Shown here: piece by piece, positions 50,813 to 53,690 of the stretch
Position numbering within the stretch: the first letter of the stretch is position 1
Layout of the letters: the number at the start of each line of letters is the position of its first letter
Source of the DNA: Ktedonobacteria bacterium
Lineage (GTDB): Bacteria > Chloroflexota > Ktedonobacteria > Ktedonobacterales > JACDGC01
Direction of reading: 5' to 3'
NCBI GenBank assembly: GCA_027459705.1
Contig: DAIDHM010000057.1
Coordinates: 22,106 to 86,105 of the forward strand
Length of the DNA: 64,000 nt
Translations under genes and position numbers: made by a program
Notes under the pieces: generated by a model
Told to the model about the DNA's origin: nothing
Seen by the model: the letters and a program-made list of their open reading frames with translations, nothing else
Database searches by the model: none

Positions 50813-51373
50813 TCAGGATAGGACTGAATGGGGGGCGGGCGCATTCATCTTACCGATCGGACACATGGCGCGATAAGCGCAAGCACGGCACACCGTCGCG
50901 TCCTGACGTTGCACGATCGGCCCTTGCGCTTCGTGAGCCCGAATGGTGTCGATGCGTTGATGCACAAGATCACGCAAGGCAGGGGTCATGGGCAAGGCCA
51001 GGTCGCGATCCTGGTAGCGCAGGAGGGCGACGCTTGTCGCGACTCCGAGCGCCTCATCCACCACCAATGCCTGGGCCGCCAACGTCAACGCATCTTCGCG
51101 GCTGATGGCGGCCGGTGCAAGTCCAACGCGCAGTGTGACGATGCGCACTGCGCCATCTGCCGCGCGTTCAATGAAGTCTGGTTGCGCGGCGAGTGCCAGG
51201 GCATGCGCGACCAATGGCCCCCCAGAGCCAACACCGGTCGCAGAAGAATAGAGCATCTGGGGGGCGGTGGGGTCCGTGCCCTTGGGAAGAGTGTCGTTCG
51301 CAGCCAAGACGATGAGCGCTACTATGGCGACGAACGCAATGCCCAGGACCGCGCCGATGAGATCCGTCGTCAT
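50813..51373 (-). CDS. C-terminal half of a split membrane-anchored Cas4-like PD-(D/E)XK Fe-S protein
   Basis: N-terminal TM (LIGAVLGIAFVAIVALIVLA); QPDFIERAADGAVRIVTLRVG; DALTLAAQALVVDEALG; C-terminal ATVCRACAYRAMCP cysteine cluster. Confidence 0.65.
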   Translation of the reverse strand: MTTDLIGAVLGIAFVAIVALIVLAANDTLPKGTDPTAPQMLYSSATGVGSGGPLVAHALALAAQPDFIERAADGAVRIVTLRVGLAPAAISREDALTLAAQALVVDEALGVATSVALLRYQDRDLALPMTPALRDLVHQRIDTIRAHEAQGPIVQRQDATVCRACAYRAMCPIGKMNAPAPHSVLS

Positions 51374-51765
51374 CGGCCCTGTGTCACGGCGAAGACCATG
51401 CCCGCGGCCACGAGGCCTATCACGATGGCAGCGATAGCGATGACGAGATGGAGCAGGCTGTGTGGCGCGCCAGCTGGGCGGATGGGTTGGGCGACCGGCA
51501 CAGCCACGCCAGGTGTCACTCGCGCTTCAGCTCGCTCGCGCAGATGCTGAAGGAGTTGATACTCTGGCAGATCCTGCGTTCCAGGACCATAGACCGCCGT
51601 CAGCAACTCCATCCGATGCATGATCGTCGCGACATCAGCACTGGCCAATGGATGTTGGCGATCGTACCACCACGCCAGGGGGCAAACTTCATAACGCCCC
51701 ACCTCGCGCGCATCCATGATGCGTTCCTGGGGCATCGGTTGGCGAAAGTCAAGTGTCATTGGCAT
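51370..51765 (-). CDS. N-terminal half of a split membrane-anchored Cas4-like protein
   Basis: MDAREVGRYEVCPLAWWYDRQHP resembles the Cas4/PD-(D/E)XK N-terminal Cys motif; C-terminal TM (LLHLVIAIAAIVIGLVAAGMVFAV); 4-nt overlap with the next gene. AGGGAGG upstream of ATG at 51765. Confidence 0.62.
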   Translation of the reverse strand: MPMTLDFRQPMPQERIMDAREVGRYEVCPLAWWYDRQHPLASADVATIMHRMELLTAVYGPGTQDLPEYQLLQHLRERAEARVTPGVAVPVAQPIRPAGAPHSLLHLVIAIAAIVIGLVAAGMVFAVTQGR

Positions 51766-51802: not shown

Positions 51803-53494
51803 TCAGGCGGTTGGCGTCCAATTGCCTTTCAGCCCAAGATCGTCCGCGATACCCCGCATGGCCTCGATCACAAACGTGATGTGGTCATCGAGTTCGACCC
51901 CTAACGCTGACGCACCATTGATGATGTCGTCGCGGTTGATGCTGCGCGCAAAGGCTTTGTCGCGCATCTTCTTGCGGATCGATGGTGTCTCTAATGCCAT
52001 AATACTCCGGTCAGGACGGACCAGTGCAGCCGCTGTCACCAACCCGGTGATCTCATCACAGGCCACGAGTGTCCTGGCGAGACGATCCTCGCGCGGCAAT
52101 TGGTTGACATCATTGTGCGCCAGGATGGCCTGTATGATACGCGGATCATAGCCGCCATCGCGCAACCAACCTGCAGCGATCTGGGTATGTTCATGCAGAT
52201 CGGGATATTCTTCATAATCGCAATCATGCAACAGTCCAGTGATCGCGAAGATCTCTTCGTCTTCATCAAATTTGCGAGCGTAGGCGCGCATCGCGGCTTC
52301 TACAGAGAGCATATGTTTGCGCAAGCTATCTTGCTGCACATGCGCCTGCATGAGGGCCAACGCATCAGCCCGTGTAGGGTGAGAATCCATCATCGTTGGT
52401 TGTTCCTCCAAAGTTAGGTGGGTTGTATCAGGTGTAGGGCGACTGGGTGATGCCATGTGGTTCGGTATCTGATCAGCACTAGGGGTGAGACGAAATACAA
52501 TCCCTAATCCGGGATCTGCTGGCAACGTCAGTTCCCCTTCGCTGATATGGACACCCGTGCAGGGATCATCATCAACCAGGAGACTGCCATCAAGATCCAG
52601 CATATCCACCAGAGGCGCGAGGTGCGCCGCCGCTGTGATACCCAGCGAACTCTCGATCATACAGCCCAGCATGATCCGCATGCCCAGCGATCGGGCAACA
52701 TGGATCATCCGTATGGCCTCGGTGAGACCACCGCATTTCGCCAGCTTGATGTTAATGCCATCGACAGCGCCCGCCAGTCGCGCGACATCCGCTACGTCGA
52801 CACAATCTTCATCAGCGAAGATGGGTATTGGACTCCGCTCGCGCAGTAAGCGTAGACCAGCAACATTTCCTGGTGGAATCGGTTGTTCGATCATCTCGAT
52901 GTGATAGGGCGCTAGTGCCTCGATCATCTGCAGTGCGGTCTTCACTGTCCATCCCGCATTCGCATCGACACGTAAGGTGGCATTGCTGACCTCACGGATG
53001 GCGCGGATAATCGCGAGATCATCTGGTGTCCCTAACTTGATTTTGAGGATAGGATATTGGGCCGCCGCCGCCTTGCGCGCCATCTCATCAGGAGTGGCGA
53101 GGCCGATAGTAAATGATGTAGGGGGGAGATGCTGAGCACTCAAGCCCAGGAGTCGATACACTGGCGCTCCAAACATTTTGCCTGCGAGATCGTATAGGGC
53201 CATATCTATCGCCGCCCGCAGACTGCCGTGGTGCGGCAGGGCGCGCGCCATTCGCTCGGCTATTGCCACGGTAGCGTAGGGATCCTCACCAAGCAAAGGG
53301 ATATAGGTCTCCAATGCCGCCAGGGAGGTCGCAATGGTCTCACCAAAGAAGGCGCGTGGGGCAGCCTCGCCGAATCCCACATAATCGTTATGGTGCACGC
53401 GAATCAAGAGATTTGTCGCGATCTGCTGTACCCCGCGAGAGATGCGAAAGGGGGTAGTGAGGTGAAGGGTGAATGGTTGCGCGTCGACTTGCAT
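51803..53494 (-). CDS. Enolase-superfamily epimerase (dipeptide epimerase/o-succinylbenzoate synthase-like) fused to an HD-domain hydrolase
   Basis: LKIKLGTPDD, LRVDANAGW, IEQPIPPGN, IFADEDC, INIKLAKCGGLTEAI (enolase superfamily); C-terminal LRKHMLSVEAAMRAYAR...GLLHDCDYEEYPDLHEHTQIAA (HD). Confidence 0.88.
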   Translation of the reverse strand: MQVDAQPFTLHLTTPFRISRGVQQIATNLLIRVHHNDYVGFGEAAPRAFFGETIATSLAALETYIPLLGEDPYATVAIAERMARALPHHGSLRAAIDMALYDLAGKMFGAPVYRLLGLSAQHLPPTSFTIGLATPDEMARKAAAAQYPILKIKLGTPDDLAIIRAIREVSNATLRVDANAGWTVKTALQMIEALAPYHIEMIEQPIPPGNVAGLRLLRERSPIPIFADEDCVDVADVARLAGAVDGINIKLAKCGGLTEAIRMIHVARSLGMRIMLGCMIESSLGITAAAHLAPLVDMLDLDGSLLVDDDPCTGVHISEGELTLPADPGLGIVFRLTPSADQIPNHMASPSRPTPDTTHLTLEEQPTMMDSHPTRADALALMQAHVQQDSLRKHMLSVEAAMRAYARKFDEDEEIFAITGLLHDCDYEEYPDLHEHTQIAAGWLRDGGYDPRIIQAILAHNDVNQLPREDRLARTLVACDEITGLVTAAALVRPDRSIMALETPSIRKKMRDKAFARSINRDDIINGASALGVELDDHITFVIEAMRGIADDLGLKGNWTPTA

Positions 53495-53690
53495 GATACA
53501 GCTCCGAGCCTCAAGAAATCGTTTGAGATAGCATACCACGTCTCCCGCGAATTTAGAGGAGTTGGGCCAAAAGCGCAGGGAGAAGTTGTCTGGATGGTGT
53601 AGGACTTGCATAGAAGCAAATCATGCCAGGAACACCAGACAAGGTCGTGTCATACCAGTGGAGCGATAGACCAACGGGGATGGGGAGTGG

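Follow-up and report, generated by a model that had tools for sequence, protein, structure and literature searches.

Two overlapping genes in a bacterium of the Ktedonobacteria (assembly GCA_027459705.1), here called A and B, probably encode a two-subunit, membrane-tethered version of the Cas4 fold that is dead as a nuclease in this organism and would most likely act as an iron-sulfur (Fe-S) DNA-binding or scaffold complex. The pair was found in a stretch of 64,000 nucleotides (contig DAIDHM010000057.1, positions 22,106 to 86,105 of the forward strand), which is referred to as the window. Homology to Cas4, the split into two genes, the signals of membrane topology and the co-occurrence of A and B are established at the level of the sequences.

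The Gene Pair and Its Similarity to Cas4

The two open reading frames (ORFs) and their upstream neighbour have the following features in the window:

51370..51765, minus strand: gene A, 131 aa, with a Cas4-type cysteine motif at the N-terminus, a remnant of motif I and a C-terminal transmembrane (TM) helix; predicted topology N-in/C-out
about 51682-51684, minus strand: first cysteine of gene A (in YEVCPLAWWY)
51370..51373, minus strand: overlap of the A stop and the B start, ATGA, 4 nt
50813..51373, minus strand: gene B, 186 aa, with an N-terminal TM helix, a degraded RecB-like core and a C-terminal CxxCx5C; predicted topology N-out/C-in
51128..51178, minus strand: former catalytic core of B, with D66 retained (QPDF) and E-x-K replaced by T80-L-R82, as judged from the alignment
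50861..50890, minus strand: C162, C165 and C171 of B (CRACAYRAMC), invariant in all inspected relatives
51803..52423, minus strand: HDIG (HD) phosphohydrolase domain directly upstream of A, 37 nt from the A start
51803-53611, minus strand: 602-aa ORF with an N-terminal enolase-superfamily (dipeptide epimerase-like) domain and the C-terminal HDIG domain

An earlier interpretation, made by a model from the letters and a list of ORFs (the sequence-only reading), had placed both genes at these coordinates on this strand with a 4-nt overlap, and both ORFs were found as described. A Shine-Dalgarno-like GGGAGG precedes the ATG of gene A at 51765, and the junction of A and B reads ...GGCCGATGACG... 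with the ATGA overlap. Besides the motif in A, QPDFIERAADG, IVTLRVG and CRACAYRAMC were recognised in B. The top 19-residue hydropathy window of A reaches 2.9 and stops 6 residues short of the C-terminus, and that of B reaches 3.1 and begins at residue 5. Motifs and hydropathy therefore agree with the cysteine motif previously proposed for A and with TM helices at the end of A and the start of B.

A profile of joined A and B, taken from the other classes of the phylum, matched canonical Cas4 of the same order with a probability of 99.65% and an E-value of 4.8e-25. The match was a single alignment of 188 columns that takes in Cys1 and motif I (GxxxH) at one end and the C-terminal cysteines at the other, and the main insertion of joined A and B relative to Cas4 consisted of two helices that separate motif I from the motif II Asp. 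The distance from Cys1 to E-x-K was 73–86 residues in ordinary Cas4 versus 135–203 in the split proteins measured. The halves found on a Bacillus subtilis plasmid tile one 180-position Cas4 model, with A covering positions 1–44 and B positions 61–179, and the A proteins of relatives match the N-terminal part of Cas4 profiles. It had been suggested that A and B make up one Cas4-like domain divided at the membrane region, and this is supported by the joined profile and the PADLOC tiling; the profile comparison with Cas4 that had been proposed as a check recovered the similarity when a profile of joined relatives was used.

Window B by itself matched the NCBIfam Cas4 model TIGR00372 with an E-value of 2.7e-6 and PADLOC Cas4 models with E-values from 7e-9 (Cas4c) to 3e-6, with scores below the curated cut-offs (27.4 bits vs 65 for TIGR00372, 19.0 vs 22.7 for PF01930). 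Because of the E-values of 2.7e-6 and 7e-9 and because B is conserved together with A across most genomes of the order, its similarity to Cas4 is judged to exceed chance despite these scores. The B protein of a relative (L067) lies above both cut-offs (72.2 vs 65 for TIGR00372, 35.1 vs 22.7 for PF01930), and one non-Ktedonobacterial B lies above that of PF01930 (42.7 vs 22.7).

The AlphaFold model of a natural fusion of A and B (mean pLDDT 80.6) consists of two long helices followed by a RecB-like core, and window B was modelled alone with a mean pLDDT of 75.5. For both models the best PDB matches in Foldseek were Cas4 structures (probability 1.00), in agreement with a RecB-like Cas4 fold. The four Fe-S cysteines of Cas4, one N-terminal and three C-terminal, are present across A and B, and because of the fold match they would be expected to converge on one cluster; model confidence near the C-terminal cysteines was moderate only.

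Predicted Membrane Topology

Lysine and arginine residues are more numerous before the helix in 56 of 61 A proteins and after the helix in 61 of 62 B proteins, so that under the positive-inside rule the domains of both are predicted to be cytoplasmic. Hydropathy and this bias agree with the attachment of both halves to the membrane that the sequence-only reading had put forward, in the sense of a predicted topology. A median of 2 residues lies beyond the helix window of A and a median of 4 ahead of the helix of B, which would place the cut between the genes within a hairpin of helices, in its short loop outside the cytoplasm. A break in this outer loop should cost little, and this would explain the interchange of split and fused forms. 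In the window, the C-terminal helix of A and the N-terminal helix of B form part of a split membrane Cas4 design, in which the two proteins complete one Cas4 domain.

Distribution and Genomic Context

With window B alone as query, a search of the GTDB collection gave no matches, and an alignment of relatives worked as query. Of the 399 Chloroflexota genomes sampled, a profile of the pair matches 139, in about 120 cases at E < 1e-17. Among 47 genomes of Ktedonobacterales, B was identified in 34 and A in 31, and named relatives include Thermogemmatispora, Dictyobacter, Ktedonosporobacter and Tengunoibacter. A tree calculated without the catalytic columns separated Ktedonobacterales from the rest in two clean groups (support 99/95), and inheritance of the pair appears to be mostly vertical and chromosomal.

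In at least 26 of the 31 loci from Ktedonobacterales, A is preceded by an HDIG-domain gene. At several loci of the order a dipeptide-epimerase-like gene lies upstream of the HDIG gene, and the window keeps the order epimerase, HD, A, B. The epimerase-like and HDIG domains are encoded by separate ORFs of 364 and 191 aa in one relative (G004, locus L063), and long joined frames were also seen in two other genomes (G006 and G019). Downstream of the pair, an ArgZ-like ornithine cyclodeaminase is often found in Ktedonobacterales. Elsewhere the pair is accompanied by nadK and recN in one group and by frr-uppS-cdsA-rseP in another (named by eye from the sequence). The neighbours vary between classes and none of them pins down the role, and they point to a housekeeping setting more than to a defence island. 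Cas3 was considered for the HD domain, and the weak match (E 0.003) was put down to generic HD similarity.

No CRISPR-like repeat array was found within the window, as had been noted before. The genome contains two CRISPR adaptation modules on other contigs (L094 and L095), in each of which a single-chain Cas4 with intact motifs lies beside Cas1 and Cas2 (identified by eye from the sequence). The window pair adjoins neither cas1 and cas2 nor a CRISPR array, and a role as a component of CRISPR adaptation was ruled out for it, since the two cas modules have an ordinary Cas4 of their own.

Spread beyond Chloroflexota is based on plasmid records only. The same split design occurs on plasmids of Paludisphaera (L215) and Singulisphaera (L225), both Planctomycetota, and of Bacillus subtilis (L216). 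Both planctomycete pairs overlap by 4 nt, with DNA methyltransferase genes nearby, and a helicase gene lies upstream of the pair in B. subtilis. A search of phage records for the pair gave no match. Of the two halves, the records inspected describe only B as Cas4-like and label A 'hypothetical protein'.

The ancestral form of the pair, still present in most Chloroflexota, has full nuclease motifs and would probably cut or trim DNA on the cytoplasmic side of the membrane. It might serve against invaders, degrading DNA as it enters at the membrane during phage infection, conjugation or transformation, and not in repair or housekeeping. The tether with its predicted cytoplasmic domain, the intact motifs and the plasmid copies beside DNA methyltransferases in Planctomycetes are consistent with such a role, which is nevertheless unlikely in view of the mostly vertical, chromosomal inheritance in two clean clades, of housekeeping neighbours such as nadK-recN or frr-uppS-cdsA-rseP (named by eye), and of the loci, at which no defence-island context was seen.

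Loss of the Nuclease Site

Catalytic positions were compared in an alignment of 66 rows, 33 from Ktedonobacterales and 33 from outside the order. Outside the order, the motif I His and the E, K and Q residues are present in 33 of 33 rows and D in 32 of 33, the remaining row having E. Within Ktedonobacterales, the motif D or E has been lost in 14 of 33 rows, and motif I is usually gone too. None of the 66 rows lacks any of the cysteines C2–C4, and C1 is present in every one of the 64 rows that have an A sequence. Parsimony on the tree without catalytic columns required 8 changes, one of which is a conservative D-to-E exchange, and points to about seven independent inactivations within Ktedonobacterales.

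In the window pair, D is kept, E is exchanged for T, K for R, Q for T and Y for Q, and the motif I His is also gone, so that the motif II Asp is the sole survivor of the catalytic D, E-x-K and QxxxY. The T-L-R that had been reported in place of E-x-K is thus real in the alignment, and the suspicion of a degraded, probably dead nuclease site was strengthened, as further catalytic positions proved to be lost. The family of the window (f1; G000, G001 and G004 in the alignment) has gone furthest: E, K, Q and Y have all been replaced, and D is found only in the window, two relatives having A and S at the motif II Asp. Whether E-x-K was lost across the whole clade had also been asked; this was ruled out, since most relatives are intact and the window represents one of about seven losses. 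Alanine mutants of Cas4 catalytic motifs were almost inactive (PMC4176176), and on account of these mutants and the losses in the same motifs the window pair is very probably not a nuclease.

A further explanation would be decay, in which the pair of the window is a remnant on its way to loss that has already lost its function in the family, and its degraded motifs carry no new one. The whole pair is absent from 11 of 11 genomes of family f3 and from three of the six f1 genomes (G002, G003 and G005), and is therefore dispensable there; f1 has lost nearly all catalytic positions, and its branches are long. Decay is nonetheless improbable, as two f1 genera keep both frames open and a third keeps that of B, and as the gene order of the operon, HD included, is preserved. 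The f1 branches total about 4 changes per site, at which an average site would stay unchanged with a probability of about 0.02 each, and the cysteines and both helices persist despite this. Between B of G000 and G001, third codon positions differ most (0.59 vs 0.42 and 0.33 at first and second positions), as purifying selection predicts. The pair looks dispensable, yet selected where it is present.

PD-(D/E)XK enzymes tolerate migrated catalytic residues, and the window protein retains the motif II Asp (D66), so that the pair could still be an active nuclease with a rearranged site in which non-canonical residues serve as the other ligands. This is very unlikely, because the two f1 relatives with A or S instead of this Asp also lack E, K, Q and Y.

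Two Separate Chains

Organisation of the genes was inspected at 33 loci in Ktedonobacterales and 39 elsewhere in Chloroflexota, and A and B adjoin in most of them. In Ktedonobacterales, A and B are separate ORFs in 28 loci, with the B start between -13 and +153 nt relative to the A end and a 4-nt overlap in five loci. Outside the order, A lies upstream of B on the same strand in 33 of 39 loci, usually overlapping or within about 60 nt, and an unrelated ORF lies between the two in three genomes (L146, L168 and L171). Six genomes have a lone B, and in all six A was detected elsewhere (E 2e-17 to 1e-29), in one of them on the same contig at a distance of 887 kb and in the others on separate contigs. 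Genomes without B were also without A (5 of 5 tested). A and B are distinct chains that occur together; as they are unlinked in six genomes, the split is not due to a frameshift or an assembly error. The single polypeptide of Cas4 is thus replaced by two ORFs in the window and in most relatives.

A and B form one ORF in three loci only, those of Dictyobacter aurantiacus, D. arantiisoli and one metagenome-assembled genome (MAG). A survey for relatives with a single fused gene and a TM insert had been proposed, and these fusions, which look secondary, are what it yielded. Of the gene fission claimed by the sequence-only reading, the split itself was confirmed, and the idea of a local event was given up, since the design is ancient and phylum-wide; a local fission artefact or a sequencing error is ruled out in the same way. 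The 4-nt overlap in five Ktedonobacterales loci and the in-frame fusions in three might suggest that the split is only apparent, a single gene being read through programmed frameshifting or stop read-through. For the family this is refuted by the six genomes in which A and B are on different contigs or 887 kb from each other, and with an unrelated ORF between them in three others and gaps that reach 153 nt in Ktedonobacterales it is extremely improbable for the window.

Proposed Function

In the two-subunit membrane Cas4 that is favoured here, each chain would cross the membrane once and the two helices would pair as a hairpin. The cytoplasmic parts of A and B would assemble one RecB-like domain, in which one cysteine of A and three of B are expected to hold an Fe-S cluster. 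Since the nuclease site is gone in the family of the window, the pair most likely survives there as an Fe-S-stapled DNA-binding or scaffold complex. It may bind DNA or a partner without cutting, perhaps together with the adjacent HDIG hydrolase. For AddAB, the Fe-S cluster was reported to be required for DNA-end binding (PMC4176176). A wider and rather speculative reading would be that two-subunit membrane Cas4 enzymes of at least three phyla process DNA at the inner surface of the membrane, and that Ktedonobacterales have repeatedly converted them to a dead Fe-S sensor of DNA ends working with an HDIG hydrolase.

Relation to Known Cas4 Proteins and Meaning

The top fold and profile matches were to Cas4 (TIGR00372 and PF01930 DUF83; Pcal_0546, PDB 4R5Q; SSO0001, PDB 4IC1; type I-C Cas4, PDB 8D3L), and the order of elements (Cys1, motif I, D, E-x-K, QxxxY, CxxCx5C) is the same in relatives of the pair. 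In contrast to Cas4, the pair consists of two genes, has a membrane hairpin between motifs I and II and lacks a CRISPR link, and in the window E-x-K and QxxxY are missing as well. The proper name for the window protein is a Cas4-like, probably catalytically dead pair and not a Cas4 nuclease. The iron-staple nuclease domains of AddB/AdnA and Dna2, also among the Foldseek matches, are likewise RecB-like, with one Fe-S cysteine in the N-terminal part and three in the C-terminal part, but belong to single large helicase-nuclease chains without membrane helices.

Solo-Cas4 proteins outside cas loci were described as mainly vertically inherited and as monophyletic in many Chloroflexi (Hudaiberdiev et al. 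2017, PMC5704561), and these Chloroflexi proteins may include B halves. According to the main text of that survey, all Cas4 carry the catalytic motifs and four cysteines, and its conclusion is that all look active; isolated B proteins and the dead members agree with neither statement. A split or membrane anchoring of Cas4 is not mentioned in this main text. The nucleocapsid protein of TTV1, cited there as Cas4-derived, inactivated and reused, is an inactivated homologue like the window pair, but a soluble viral component and not a membrane pair.

Cas4 has been known as a soluble nuclease, either of CRISPR adaptation or solo. No description of a membrane or split Cas4 was found in the open-access literature, and the two-gene version with a membrane hairpin is apparently undescribed there. 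The design is conserved through one whole phylum, and two further phyla have it on plasmids. Because in the records inspected only B is annotated as Cas4-like and A as 'hypothetical', database entries for Cas4 from organisms with the pair may be half-proteins. Members with an intact, a partly dead or a fully dead site, all with the same cysteines, form a natural series, in which the role of the Fe-S cluster can be tested apart from the cutting of DNA. This is of relevance because the effect of losing the cluster differs among Cas4 proteins, and published mutants disagree on its role (PMC4176176).
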